A stretch of DNA of 39,202 bases, taken from NCBI GenBank assembly GCA_947456525.1, contig CANGRI010000004.1:1-39202 (forward strand). The letters are read 5' to 3'. The stretch comes from Opitutia bacterium. Lineage in GTDB: Bacteria; Verrucomicrobiota; Verrucomicrobiia; Opitutales; UBA953. Both the position numbers and the translations under genes were made by a program. Under the pieces are notes generated by a model. That model searched no databases and was not told the origin of the DNA. It saw only the letters and a program-made list of their open reading frames with translations. Below are positions 15,048-19,563 of this stretch, in pieces. Numbering within the stretch: position 1 is the first letter of the stretch; the number at the start of each line of letters is the position of its first letter.

Positions 15048-16124
15048 ATGAACGAGCCCTTCGACACCATCGAGGAAGCCCTAGCGGACATCGCCGCCGG
15101 GAAGCTCGTCATCGTGACCGACGACGAGAACCGCGAGAACGAGGGAGACCTCGTGATGGCGGCGTCCAAGGCCACGCCTGAGACCGTCAACATGATGATC
15201 CGCCACGCGCGCGGCCTCATCTGCGTGCCGACCGTCGAACATCAGCTCCGCCGCCTAGGCATCTCCCAGATGGTCCCGGAGAACCGCGAATCCCAGCGCA
15301 CCGCCTTCGCCGTCGCCGTCGACGCCGCGGAAGGCATCTCCACCGGCATCTCCGCCTACGACCGCGCGAAGACCATCGCGATCCTCGCCGACCCGCAGGC
15401 CAAGCCCGAGGCGCTCGTGCAGCCCGGCCACATCTTCCCGCTGCTCGCCCGACCCGGCGGCGTGCTGCAGCGCGCCGGCCACACCGAAGCCGCCGTCGAC
15501 CTCGCGTCGCTCGCCGGACTCCATCCGAGCGGCGTCATCTGCGAGATCCTGAACGAGGACGGCTCGATGGCTCGCCTGCCGGAACTCGTCGAACTCAAGA
15601 AGAAGTTCGGCCTTCACATGATCTCTATCGCGCAGCTCATCGAGTTCCGCCACCGCCGCGAACGCCTCGTCGAGCTCGTCGCCGAAAGCCCCTTCCAGTC
15701 CGCCTGGGGCGAATTCGCCCTGCGCGTCTATCGCTCGCTGCCGGACGGCCGCCAGCACCTCGTGTTCACGCTCGGCCAGCCGGACGAATCCCCGACGCTC
15801 GTGCGCGTGCAGCGCGAGAACATGCTCGGCGACCTCTTCCGCGGCAGCGCCTTCGGCGCCGGCACCTCGCTCGCTTCCAGCTTCGAAGCGGTGGCCAAGG
15901 CCGGCCGCGGCGTGATTGTCCACGTCACCCAGCCCTTCGGCGGCGTGCAGGCCGACCAGGCCGGCATCCGCCTCGGCGCCATGGACGCGCGCGACTATGG
16001 CATCGGCGCCCAGATCCTTTCTCATCTCGGGCTCCGCCGCATCCGCCTCATCACGAACAACCCGCGCAAGGTGGTGGGCCTGGGCGGCTACGGGTTGGAG
16101 ATCGTCGAGCAGGTTCCGTTCTAA
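15048..16124 (+). CDS. ribB: DHBP synthase with degenerate GTP cyclohydrolase II domain (RibBX-like)
   Basis: A 358-residue RibBA-shaped protein. The N-terminal half (about 1-203) is a sound 3,4-dihydroxy-2-butanone-4-phosphate synthase with DDENRENEGD at residues 25-34, DAAEGISTGISAYDRAKTI, and GHTEAAVDLASLAGLHPSGV followed by the catalytic Glu. It converts ribulose 5-phosphate for riboflavin synthesis. The C-terminal half keeps the RibA end (DYGIGAQIL; LITNNPRKVVGL; GYGLEIVEQVP). However, the cysteine cluster that binds zinc (C-x10-C-x-C) reads LGDLFRGSAFGAG from residue 260, with no cysteine, and about 20 residues around the catalytic RQEGRGIGL-type segment are missing. GTP cyclohydrolase II activity is therefore very unlikely. 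ribH follows 69 bases downstream. Confidence 0.93.
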   Translation: MNEPFDTIEEALADIAAGKLVIVTDDENRENEGDLVMAASKATPETVNMMIRHARGLICVPTVEHQLRRLGISQMVPENRESQRTAFAVAVDAAEGISTGISAYDRAKTIAILADPQAKPEALVQPGHIFPLLARPGGVLQRAGHTEAAVDLASLAGLHPSGVICEILNEDGSMARLPELVELKKKFGLHMISIAQLIEFRHRRERLVELVAESPFQSAWGEFALRVYRSLPDGRQHLVFTLGQPDESPTLVRVQRENMLGDLFRGSAFGAGTSLASSFEAVAKAGRGVIVHVTQPFGGVQADQAGIRLGAMDARDYGIGAQILSHLGLRRIRLITNNPRKVVGLGGYGLEIVEQVPF

Positions 16125-16193
16125 GGGGATTCCGGCCGTTTCCGCTTGCAGGAAGGTTCGGAACCGACTCCATCGGCCATCCGTTCTTCTGCC

Positions 16194-16730
16194 ATGAGCC
16201 TCGACAAGCCTACCCCTGACGCCATCGATGGCGCCGAACTCCGCTTCGCCATCGTGTCGGCAGGCTACAACGCGGAACTCGTCCAGGCCCTGAAGAAGAA
16301 CGCCATCAAAGGCCTCCGCGGCGCCGGCGTCCCCGCGGCCTCCATCGTCGAGATCGCCGTCCCCGGCTCGGGCGAGATCCCTTTCGCCGCCTACATGTCC
16401 GCCATGACCGGCGACTACGATTGCGTCATCGCCCTCGGCGTCGTCATCGCCGGCGATACTCCGCACCACGAGATCATCGCCCATTCGACCGCCACCGCCC
16501 TCCAGGACGCGGCCATCCGCTCCGAGGTCCCCGTGATCAACGGCATCGTCGTCACGAACAACCGCGAGCAGGCCGTCGCCCGCTGCCAGGGCTCGCTCGA
16601 CCGCGGCACCGAGTTCGCCCATGCCGCGCTCACCATGGCCCGCCATCGCATCACGCTCGGCGAACGCCTCGACCAGGTCGAGGAAGAGGAACGCAAGCGC
16701 GGCGGCCAGGAACCTTTCGCCCAGAACTGA
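16194..16730 (+). CDS. ribH: 6,7-dimethyl-8-ribityllumazine synthase
   Basis: A 178-residue enzyme that joins the DHBP product of RibB to the ribitylamino-uracil intermediate. It shows the four family blocks: FAIVSAGYNAELV, AVPGSGEIPFAA, ALGVVIAGDTPHHEII and VPVINGIVVTNNREQA. The catalytic His lies in the PHH segment. The usual PGAFE reads PGSGE here. The ATG at 16194 (MSLDKP) is chosen since an in-frame upstream extension to 16146 is not family-like. The last 25 residues (EEEERKRGGQEPF) form a charged tail. The stop is three bases before the S10-NusB fusion gene, so the two are co-transcribed; ribBA-ribH-nusB order is common in bacteria. Confidence 0.95.
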   Translation: MSLDKPTPDAIDGAELRFAIVSAGYNAELVQALKKNAIKGLRGAGVPAASIVEIAVPGSGEIPFAAYMSAMTGDYDCVIALGVVIAGDTPHHEIIAHSTATALQDAAIRSEVPVINGIVVTNNREQAVARCQGSLDRGTEFAHAALTMARHRITLGERLDQVEEEERKRGGQEPFAQN

Positions 16731-16733
16731 CCG

Positions 16734-17516
16734 ATGGACAACGACTCGCCCATTTCCGCCTCCGCGCGCGCCAAGATCCGCATCCGGATCAAAGGCGTCG
16801 ACTACCGCATGGCGGACCAGACCGCCGCGGATATCATCGCCAGCGTGGTCGGTACCGGCGCCCGCATCTCGGGCCCCTTCCCCCTGCCTTCGCAGGTCGA
16901 AGAGCCTCGCACCGCGCTCCGCGAAGAGATCCGCAGCCACCGCCGCCTCATCGAGATCATCGGCTCCAGCCCGAAGACCGTCGACGCGTTCCGCCGCCAC
17001 AACATCCCGGCCGGCGTCGAGATCGCCATCGTCGCCCCCGAGGAACCCGTCGCACCGGATCCGGCCGCGCCGCCCGCGAAGCGCAACCGCCGCCACGACA
17101 GCCGCGTGGTCGCGATGCAGTTCCTCTGCTCCTGGGAAGTCCAGCGCCACGCCGACATGGTGACGGCCCTCTTCGACTTCTTCTCCGAGCGCCCGCAGCC
17201 CCGCGAATACTACGCCTTCGCCGAGGAGCTCATCCAGGGCGTCATCCGCGACCTCGCCCTCATCGACGAGATCATCGGGAAGTACGCCAAGAACTGGGCC
17301 TTCGGCCGCATCGCGCGCGTCGACCTCGCCATCCTGCGTATCGCCATCTTCGAGCTCATGCGCCGGACGGACATCCCTCCGGTCGTCAGCATCAACGAGG
17401 CCGTCGACATCGCGAAGGAATTCTCGACCGAGGAATCCAAGCGTTTCGTGAACGGCATCCTCGACAGCTACAAGGAAGAGCTGGGTCGCGACCCGCGCAA
17501 AGCCGAAGGCGGCTGA
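16734..17516 (+). CDS. nusB: S10 (NusE)-NusB fusion transcription antitermination factor
   Basis: A 260-residue protein, about 100-120 residues longer than usual NusB. Residues 14-100 match ribosomal protein S10: KIRIRIKGVDYRMADQTAAD, TGARISGPFPLP, EIRSHRRLIEII, PKTVDAFRRHNIPAGVEI. Between PLP and EIR there are 12 residues where E. coli S10 has 22, and the FTVL-x-SPHV core of the ribosome-binding loop is absent. Residues 101-120 are a Pro/Ala linker with a basic end. Residues 121-255 are a full NusB: VVAMQFLCSWEVQ, IARVDLAILRIAIFELM, PPVVSINEAVDIAKEFS, FVNGILDSY. NusB and S10/NusE form the heterodimer that loads on boxA RNA in rRNA antitermination, so this should be a one-chain NusB-NusE. The domain reading is direct; the function is inferred. 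Confidence 0.93.
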   Translation: MDNDSPISASARAKIRIRIKGVDYRMADQTAADIIASVVGTGARISGPFPLPSQVEEPRTALREEIRSHRRLIEIIGSSPKTVDAFRRHNIPAGVEIAIVAPEEPVAPDPAAPPAKRNRRHDSRVVAMQFLCSWEVQRHADMVTALFDFFSERPQPREYYAFAEELIQGVIRDLALIDEIIGKYAKNWAFGRIARVDLAILRIAIFELMRRTDIPPVVSINEAVDIAKEFSTEESKRFVNGILDSYKEELGRDPRKAEGG

Positions 17517-17520
17517 ACCG

Positions 17521-18423
17521 ATGGCGGGCTTCTTCGAGCGTCTGAAGTCCGGCCTGAGCCGCACGGCCGAGGCCGTGGCCAACCTGCTCGCGCGGCCGAT
17601 GGACGCCGAGTCGGCCGAACAGCTGCGTGAGCGCCTGATCGCCGCCGACTTCGGGCCGGCCACCGCCGACGAGGTCGTCGAAGCCGCTCGCTCCGCCTGG
17701 AAATCCGAAGCGGCGCTCCGCAAGACCTCCCCCGCCGAAGCCGCGGCCGAAAGCATCGTGCGCGCCCTCGGCGGCGACACCGCTGCCGCGCCGGCCCTTG
17801 CCAAGCCCCACGTGATCATGCTGCTCGGCGTCAACGGCGCCGGCAAGACGACCACCGCCGCGAAGCTCGCCTGGCGCTGGCGTCAGGAAAGCAAGACATG
17901 CCTGCTCGGCGCGTGCGACACGTTCCGCGCGGCTGCCGGCGAACAGCTTTCCGCCTGGGCCGACCGGCTCGGCGTCGAGGTCGTCGGCGGCGCCGCCGGC
18001 GCCGATCCGGCCGCCGTGGCCTTCGATGCCGTGAAGGCGGGCGTAGCCCGGGAGGCCGACGTCGTCATCCTCGACACCGCCGGCCGCCTCCACACCAAGG
18101 CGCACCTGCTCGAAGAACTCAGGAAAGTCGTCCGCGTAACGGCCAAGGCCCACGCTGGCGCGCCGCACGAAAAGTGGCTCGTCATCGACGGCTCGCTCGG
18201 CGCGAACTCGATCGAGCAGGCCCGCATCTTCCATGAAGCCGTCGGTCTCACCGGCCTGATCGTGACCAAGCTCGACGGCACCGCGCGCGGCGGCGCGCTC
18301 GTCGCCGTGGTCCGCGAACTCGGCGTCCCGGTCCGCTTCATCGGCATCGGCGAACAGCCGGCCGACCTCCAGCCCTTCGACGCACGCGCCTACGCCCGGT
18401 CGGTCGTCGGGCTGGCCGAGTGA
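17521..18423 (+). CDS. ftsY: Signal recognition particle receptor FtsY
   Basis: A 300-residue SRP-family GTPase that docks SRP-bound ribosomes at the inner membrane. An N domain (about 1-90) precedes the G domain, with P-loop GVNGAGKT at residues 103-110, then DTFRAAAGEQL, VILDTAGR, LIVTKLDGTARGG and the closing RFIGIGEQPADLQPFD. There is no acidic A domain, so it is a short FtsY, and the N-terminal amphipathic stretch (MAGFFERLKSGLSR) probably makes the membrane contact. The usual G-x-x-G-QN segment before the G4 motif reads GSLGAN here. It starts four bases after the S10-NusB stop and belongs to the same operon. Confidence 0.96.
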   Translation: MAGFFERLKSGLSRTAEAVANLLARPMDAESAEQLRERLIAADFGPATADEVVEAARSAWKSEAALRKTSPAEAAAESIVRALGGDTAAAPALAKPHVIMLLGVNGAGKTTTAAKLAWRWRQESKTCLLGACDTFRAAAGEQLSAWADRLGVEVVGGAAGADPAAVAFDAVKAGVAREADVVILDTAGRLHTKAHLLEELRKVVRVTAKAHAGAPHEKWLVIDGSLGANSIEQARIFHEAVGLTGLIVTKLDGTARGGALVAVVRELGVPVRFIGIGEQPADLQPFDARAYARSVVGLAE

Positions 18424-18466
18424 GGTTGTCTTGCCAGCGAGGGCGCCTCGCCCCAGCGTGACCTCA
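18421..18466. repeat. Nested inverted repeat between ftsY and aroB
   Basis: Outer arms TGAGGT (18421-18426) and ACCTCA (18461-18466) enclose inner arms GCGAGG (18437-18442) and CCTCGC (18446-18451), with nearly the same centre. The outer arms hold the ftsY stop codon and the first base of the aroB ATG. A TTGCCA box (18431-18436), 35 bases before aroB, lies between the left arms and could be a -35 element. No T-run follows. Confidence 0.45.
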
Positions 18467-19563
18467 TGTCGGCCGAGACCGTCACCGTCCAGCTAGGCCA
18501 GCGCTCCTACCCCGTCCGCATCGGGGCCGGGATGCGCCAGGAAGCCTTGGCCGTGGCCGAACGCCGCGTCGCCTCGGGCCAGAAGTGCGTCGCGATCACC
18601 TCGCCCGGAGTCGCCGCGGCCCAGTCCGGCTTCACCGCGCAACTCGCCCGCCTGATGCCCGTCCTCGTGACCGCGTCCGACGGCGAGACCGCCAAGTCCG
18701 CCGCCGAACTCGCGCGCGTCTGGGACTTCCTCGCCGCCAACGGCGTCGCCCGCGACGGTGCCGTCTTCGCCTTCGGCGGAGGCGTCGTCGGCGACCTCGC
18801 CGGTTTCGCCGCGGCCTCCTATCAGCGAGGCGTCGATTTCTATCAGGTTCCCACGACCCTCCTCGCGATGGTCGACAGCTCCGTCGGCGGCAAGACAGGC
18901 ATCAACCTCGCCGCGGGCAAGAACCTCGTCGGCAACTTCCACCAGCCCACGGCCGTCTTCGCGGACACCGACCTCCTGGCGACGCTGCCGCCGCGCGAGT
19001 TCGCTGCCGGGATGGCCGAAGTGATCAAGCATGGCATCATCGCCGACGCCGACCTCTTCGGCCTGCTCGAGCTGAATTCGCCGCTCGCATGGAGCCATCC
19101 GCTGCTGCCGCGCGTCATCCGCCGCTGCGTCGAGATCAAGGCGGCCGTCGTCGCCGGCGACGAGCGCGAGACGAGCGCCCAAGGCGGACGCGCGCTCCTC
19201 AACCTGGGGCACACCTTCGGACATGCCATCGAGGCCACCGCCGGTTACGGCACCTACCTGCACGGCGAAGCCGTCGCGATCGGGCTGGTGATGGCCGCGC
19301 GCCTTTCCGCCGAGCTCAGGCACTGCACCGCCGCCCAGGCCGAACAGGTCGAGGCCACGCTGAAGTCGCACGCCCTGCCCGTCGCCCTGCGCTCGCCGTT
19401 GCCGCTTGATCCGATGCTCGCCGCGATGCGTCGCGACAAGAAGGTCCGCGGCGGCAAGCTCCGGTTCGTCCTGCAGGACGGCATCGGCGCGGCCAGCACC
19501 GCCGACGACGTCCCCGAGGATGCGGCGGTCCGCTCCCTCCTCGCCGGCGGCGCCGCGCGCTGA
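18466..19563 (+). CDS. aroB: 3-dehydroquinate synthase
   Basis: A 365-residue enzyme that closes DAHP into 3-dehydroquinate, step two of the shikimate pathway, with NAD and a divalent metal. Clear signatures are GGGVVGD at residues 104-110, GFAAASYQRGVDFYQVPTTL, MVDSSVGGKTGIN, AGKNLVGNFHQP, MAEVIKHGIIAD (metal Glu) and LNLGHTFGHAIE (metal His) with YLHGEAVAIG (metal His). Length and motif order are normal. It follows ftsY by 42 bases with a nested inverted repeat between. The start lacks a Shine-Dalgarno sequence but has a TTGCCA box at -35, so it may have its own leaderless transcript besides read-through. Confidence 0.97.
   Translation: MSAETVTVQLGQRSYPVRIGAGMRQEALAVAERRVASGQKCVAITSPGVAAAQSGFTAQLARLMPVLVTASDGETAKSAAELARVWDFLAANGVARDGAVFAFGGGVVGDLAGFAAASYQRGVDFYQVPTTLLAMVDSSVGGKTGINLAAGKNLVGNFHQPTAVFADTDLLATLPPREFAAGMAEVIKHGIIADADLFGLLELNSPLAWSHPLLPRVIRRCVEIKAAVVAGDERETSAQGGRALLNLGHTFGHAIEATAGYGTYLHGEAVAIGLVMAARLSAELRHCTAAQAEQVEATLKSHALPVALRSPLPLDPMLAAMRRDKKVRGGKLRFVLQDGIGAASTADDVPEDAAVRSLLAGGAAR

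Follow-up and report, generated by a model that had tools for sequence, protein, structure and literature searches.

The gene at 16734..17516 on the forward strand of the window, the 39,202-nucleotide stretch of Opitutia DNA analysed here, encodes a protein of 260 residues (plus stop) in which a ribosomal protein S10 domain and a NusB domain share a single open frame. To our knowledge, bacteria in which antitermination has been studied use S10 for two jobs, as a ribosomal protein and as NusE. A reading made from the letters of the DNA (hereafter the sequence-only reading) had proposed a dedicated single-chain NusB-NusE. We infer from comparative and structural predictions that this is still the best-supported functional reading, and we give odds of about two in three to a natural single-chain NusB-NusE that acts in boxA antitermination, rpsJ retaining the ribosomal role. 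Its docking geometry, boxA/RNA binding, antitermination activity and independence from the S10 level are likewise what we infer for such a protein.

The fusion gene and its surroundings

The S10 (NusE) domain occupies residues 14-100 (16773..17033, +) and the NusB domain residues 120-255 (17091..17498, +). In Pfam, Ribosomal_S10 (PF00338) matches residues 16-99 over profile positions 1-97 of 98 (E 5e-12; 46.4 bits, cut-off 21.2), and NusB (PF01029) matches residues 122-246 over profile positions 2-131 of 133 (E 2.7e-32; 112.4 bits, cut-off 23.1). Both domains are full-length in this protein, and the two profiles, which the sequence-only reading had suggested searching, uphold its placement of S10 at residues 14-100 and NusB at 121-255. 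Against NCBIfam, the NusB equivalog TIGR01951 matches residues 120-249 with 132 bits, above its cut-off of 88.35. The bacterial rpsJ equivalogs TIGR01049 (57.9 vs 72.75 bits) and NF001861 (64.8 vs 85 bits) both fall below theirs, with rpsJ homology spanning residues 12-99. Searching PDB sequences with phmmer reached S10 chains (1.2e-16) and NusB chains (3e-21) independently, and Foldseek matched the first domain to S10 chains including 2kvq and 3d3b_J. Between the two domains lies a proline-rich linker (residues 101-119; 17034..17090, +) to which AlphaFold2 assigns low confidence, with mean pLDDT of 53 for residues 101-110 and 61 for residues 111-120.

The ATG of the fusion lies 3 bases past the stop of ribH, which encodes lumazine synthase (16191..16730, +, start approximate; PF00885, 131 bits). 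Further upstream is a synteny marker that we take to be ribB/ribBA-like (15048..16124, +). Downstream are an SRP-type GTPase gene, presumably ftsY (17521..18423, +; PF00448, 234.7 bits), and a second synteny marker, presumably aroB-like (18466..19563, +). The order ribB-like, ribH, S10-nusB, ftsY-like, aroB-like is retained in fused loci, and the upstream ribB-like order is also retained in six of the seven unfused rows from the genus.

An internal start yielding free NusB is unlikely in the window, which has no in-frame start codon from codon 39 to 124. Seventeen fused ORFs were surveyed for such starts and 16 could be placed (L034 lacks the search motif); the 16 have no start in common between their S10 and NusB parts. 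In most, an ATG occurs within the first NusB helix, at 128 or 130, and several have a GTG or TTG at 106-107. All five ORFs examined from the second fused clade carry a GTG at codon 98, and in that clade this codon could conceivably still act as an internal start.

The shortened loop, the NusB interface and the predicted structure

The sequence-only reading had described a shortened ribosome-binding loop, and the alignment agrees with it. Residues 53-64 (16890..16925, +) provide 12 residues between the PLP and EIR blocks where E. coli S10 has 22; the loop core is absent, with E. coli positions 50-58 missing. The core is likewise absent from all 37 distinct fused S10 domains. In one of the fusions (L140, genome G018), 17 loop columns are gone (E. 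coli 44-60) and the EIRTH block reads AGRRH; its S10 part has decayed much further, but D14, R16, D19 and Q20 are retained.

In the 3D3B structure, as described in PMC8341153, NusE residues H15, R16, D19 and V26 contact NusB residues Y18, L22, E75 and E81. The window protein carries the motif D-Y-R-M-A-D at residues 23-28 (16800..16817, +), which aligns with E. coli S10 D14-D19 and includes the NusB-contacting positions 15, 16 and 19. D14, R16 and D19 are each kept in 37/37 distinct fused domains, V26 in only 10/37, R31 in 3/37 and K30 in 0/37. More broadly, 54 sites are at least 95% constant across 45 canonical S10 rows, some of them identical; 19 of these sites are retained in at least 90% of the 37 distinct fused domains and 35 are not. 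Two replacements, L10I and K89R, occur in every one of the 37. Canonical S10 rows from the genus keep Y15 and R16 in 27/27 and D19 in 25/27, and these proteins could still bind NusB. A relaxation of the canonical genus S10 (D19E in 2/27, Q20H in 7/27) is unconvincing, since Q20 varies in 2 of 18 rows from other families and the rows repeat.

On the NusB side, Cys132 (codon 17127..17129, +) stands at the position of E. coli NusB Tyr18. Across 41 fused NusB rows, repeats and near copies included, this position is Cys in 28, Tyr in 12 and Val in one; it is Tyr in 20 of the 21 unfused rows that have a letter there (repeats included, three gap rows set aside). The E75 position is Gly in the window NusB, and the E81 position is Asp in all 41 fused and all 24 unfused rows. 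Loss of Tyr18 would fit a relaxed need for affinity after tethering, a NusB that no longer takes up free S10, or an altered docking. Two changes on the tree might be enough to account for the pattern, which is suggestive at most.

AlphaFold2, run on two fusions, gave a confident joint model; a fold prediction was among the checks that the sequence-only reading had proposed. The window protein (39 rows) gave a pLDDT of 83.4 and the divergent L056 protein (29 rows) 82.8, with a pTM of 0.83 in both cases. In Foldseek, the S10 part matches NusE of 2kvq (TMt 0.89, rmsd 1.2) and 3d3b_J (TMt 0.80), and the NusB part matches 3r2c_B (TMt 0.88), with a range of 0.86-0.88 on the NusB-NusE-boxA complex structures 3R2C/3R2D. 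Given domains of roughly 88 and 136 residues and a low-confidence linker, a pTM of 0.83 predicts a fixed relative placement. This predicted placement may be that of 3D3B, and the models may echo training on NusB-S10 complexes.

The fused S10 part is under purifying selection within clades. By a counting method (Nei-Gojobori) applied to chosen sequence subsets, its dN/dS is 0.076 among 12 window-like sequences (66 pairs), 0.072 in their nearest sister groups (4 pairs) and 0.041 among seven second-clade sequences (21 pairs); the NusB part gives 0.030, 0.031 and 0.060 for the same subsets. Canonical rpsJ gives 0.044 (45 pairs, 10 sequences). Across sub-clades (3 pairs, dS near 0.7), dN/dS is 0.33 for the S10 part and 0.067 for the NusB part.

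A dedicated single-chain NusB-NusE is partly borne out: the retention of D14, R16 and D19, the missing loop, the purifying selection and the joint AlphaFold2 model all point to it, and the frequent loss of Tyr18 and the absence of the S10 domain from one sub-lineage complicate it. The changed interface, in which 29 of 41 fused NusB rows lack Y18 and 10 of 37 fused S10 domains keep V26, might instead mark an autoinhibitory or decoy domain that occupies NusB, excludes free S10 and lowers antitermination or makes it conditional. The failure of 35 of the 54 canonical-constant sites to be kept in 90% of fused domains would also suit a decoy. We consider this unlikely: the S10 domain is under purifying selection, its contact motif in alpha1 is retained, and PMC10578931 states that E. 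coli S10 is active without its loop.

Less likely still is a fused domain that tethers the protein to NusG or RNA polymerase and adds a contact, with NusB pairing with ordinary S10 in trans. NusE contacts RNA polymerase via alpha1, alpha2, beta1 and beta4, on a surface that lies opposite the NusB face and overlaps the NusG-CTD site (PMC4642336), and all four elements are present in the AlphaFold2 model. The pTM of 0.83, however, suggests that the domain has a fixed place in cis, and a tether would not need the NusB-facing D14, R16 and D19 to be invariant.

Distribution, separate S10 genes and history

A fused-type S10 hit is present in 38 of 55 genomes of the genus, including the window's own, and internal stops occur in none of the 38. 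Of the other 17, 13 show the canonical type of S10 alone, one of these hits being partial, and four show neither type. NusB was looked for in 31 of the 38 carriers: it lies in the same frame as S10 in 30, and in G024 contig ends cut through the gene. Wherever the in-frame S10-NusB was found (30/30 genomes), it is the sole NusB-family match. Loci from named records span both domains in 35 of 78 cases (L032-L066). Those relatives that bear names are MAGs of uncultured Opitutae, and lake-type sample labels are attached to many of them. Two records titled Polynucleobacter and Akkermansia (L033, L046) carry the Opitutae locus at 98% and 83% identity, and these bin names are probably mislabels.

Unfused NusB, in frames of 167-176 aa, occurs in seven genus genomes (G006, G017, G156, G292, G296, G300 and G308). 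All but one of these are small, at 1.3-1.5 Mb and 83-96% complete, the exception being G156 at 2.3 Mb and 99% complete; the 16 carriers that are at least 90% complete measure 1.9-2.7 Mb. NusB was not found in G005, G007, G019, G021, G030, G034, G035 and G302, all of which are incomplete genomes. In 12 of 20 other-family genomes of the order, a long frame of 339-500 aa, presumably RsmB, gives a further NusB-domain match; 0/37 genus genomes searched show one. Among phage records, 33 match part of the fusion query and none covers 80% of it. The ten listed of these 33 lack annotation; one of them matches the S10 half of the fusion and the others the NusB half. Bacterial contamination may account for some of the phage-record matches.

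The sequence-only reading also asked for a check that a separate rpsJ with a full loop exists in the same genome. A canonical S10 accompanies the fusion in 31 of 38 carriers, and in the one carrier checked (G033) its gene sits between fusA and rplC-rplD; the genome of the window, 64.6% complete in 144 contigs, showed no second S10. The separate rpsJ is upheld in most carriers. In a phylum sample of 240 genomes that includes the window's own, each genome has at most one S10 match (233 with, seven without), and a second S10 was seen in none of the 239 others; besides the window's genome, the only member of the genus in this sample is the unfused G156. A strongly decayed fusion may escape such a search, as the G018 fusion scores only E 7.8e-4. 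The seven carriers that show no separate rpsJ, the window's genome among them, might suggest that the fused protein still serves the ribosome as S10. These seven are only 61-85% complete, however, and canonical S10 is present in 16/16 carriers that are at least 90% complete; with the loop that enters the 30S subunit also gone, we reject a ribosomal role as highly improbable. An assembly chimera or frameshift artefact, for which a fragmented, incomplete source genome of 144 contigs might be blamed, is ruled out for practical purposes by recurrence of the fused-type S10 in 38 of 55 genus genomes without internal stops, NusB in frame in 30 of them, a constant ribH-S10nusB-ftsY order and purifying selection on both parts.

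In a concatenated tree of neighbour genes and NusB, the fused clade L056-L063 is sister to the unfused L067-L070 plus G006, with support of 100/100 and 99/100 in two runs. A neighbour-gene tree constrained to hold all fused rows together is rejected (AU p 0.019; 6e-6 with G156 added), and the history therefore requires either a second gain or one or more losses. In the S10 tree (75 columns), all fused domains fall on one side of a branch with a support of 50/99, which is not strong. In this tree, which is weak, they adjoin the genus's own rpsJ with a support of 79/94, and the L140 branch is very long. The window S10 domain has a mean identity of 48.7% to genus rpsJ and 43.8% to rpsJ of other families; for L056 and L140, genus rpsJ is no closer in identity than the rpsJ of other families. 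The lineage's own rpsJ is the probable source of the fused domain, an origin that is supported, though not strongly. The shared loop deletion, together with L10I and K89R in 37/37 each, argues for a single fusion origin. The simplest reading would have the domain gained once from the lineage's own rpsJ, early in the genus, and then lost in the unfused sub-clade, with G156 representing either the pre-fusion state or another loss. Since the S10 domain is absent from one well-supported nested sub-lineage, it is dispensable there, and the unfused NusB of seven genus genomes indicates that it is not needed genus-wide.

A putative single-chain NusB-NusE and its known counterparts

NusG scores above cut-off in six of eight carriers searched, the other two (G000 and G004) having only a diverged NusG-like protein; NusA scores above cut-off in five of the eight and is partial in the other three. 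Nine of ten genus genomes searched, all but G020, encode a further NusG-like protein that is diverged (E 3e-16 to 8e-11; for example L182, G000:C2:26565-26978). It occurs in fused and unfused lineages alike and is perhaps a specialised NusG paralogue. A search for 16S matched 0/37 genus genomes and also missed 5 of 14 control genomes; 16S was found in one of 57 genomes searched, from another family. The only 23S found in a carrier sits at a contig end, and no rRNA leader could be read for boxA.

In the single-chain NusB-NusE that we favour, a copy of the lineage's own rpsJ would have been inserted in frame ahead of nusB, and the inserted S10 would have been stripped of its 30S-anchoring loop. 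The S10 domain would dock in cis on the NusB domain, and the docked pair would form the boxA-binding half of the antitermination complex that also contacts RNA polymerase and NusG, with ordinary rpsJ keeping the ribosomal job. The partner would always be present 1:1, and antitermination would neither depend on nor report the free S10 pool. For E. coli, PMC10578931 states that S10 without the loop is still active in antitermination. The same paper describes overexpressed loop-less S10 raising flagella number only with nusB, wild-type S10 being without effect, and proposes that the level of non-ribosomal S10 sets the amount of the antitermination complex. PMC4642336 reports that NusE of E. coli is very unstable on its own. 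A bolder version, which we hold tentatively and at somewhat less than even odds, is that this lineage split the two jobs of S10 for good: a fused, loop-less NusE would carry out antitermination next to a fused NusB without the tyrosine that catches free S10, and rRNA transcription would be uncoupled from ribosomal protein supply.

The sequence-only reading knew of no description of this arrangement, and we found none of an S10-NusB fusion in a search that covered part of the literature, bioRxiv preprints excluded. A natural single-chain, loop-less version whose locus is fused in some close relatives and unfused in others would be a clean experiment on the need for S10 sharing, and the fusion offers a ready-made NusB-NusE for structural work.

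Four known systems invite comparison. RsmB-type proteins also contain a natural NusB-like domain, and their models match the NusB part of the fusion weakly; there the partner is a methyltransferase acting on 16S rRNA and the role is rRNA modification, whereas the partner here is S10. Canonical ribosomal S10 (rpsJ, uS10) is homologous to the fused domain, which adjoins genus rpsJ in the best tree (79/94). The fused domain differs from it in lacking the loop core, in 35 of the 54 constant sites, whose retention among fused domains falls short of 90%, and in being joined to NusB. The NusB-NusE complex with boxA RNA (3R2C; with dsRNA, 3R2D), which we take to be from A. aeolicus, superposes on the NusB part with a TMt of 0.86-0.88; it comprises two chains with RNA bound, whereas the fusion is a single chain whose RNA binding is putative. 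The fourth is E. coli NusB-NusE(S10) (PDB 3D3B, 3D3C and 3IMQ), in which the same two folds are seen and loop-less S10 sits on NusB, the form used for structural work according to PMC4642336. That pair has two chains, a man-made deletion and an S10 shared with the ribosome, whereas the fusion is one natural chain accompanied by a second, ribosomal rpsJ. By analogy, the fusion can be regarded as a natural counterpart to NusB carrying the engineered, loop-less NusE.
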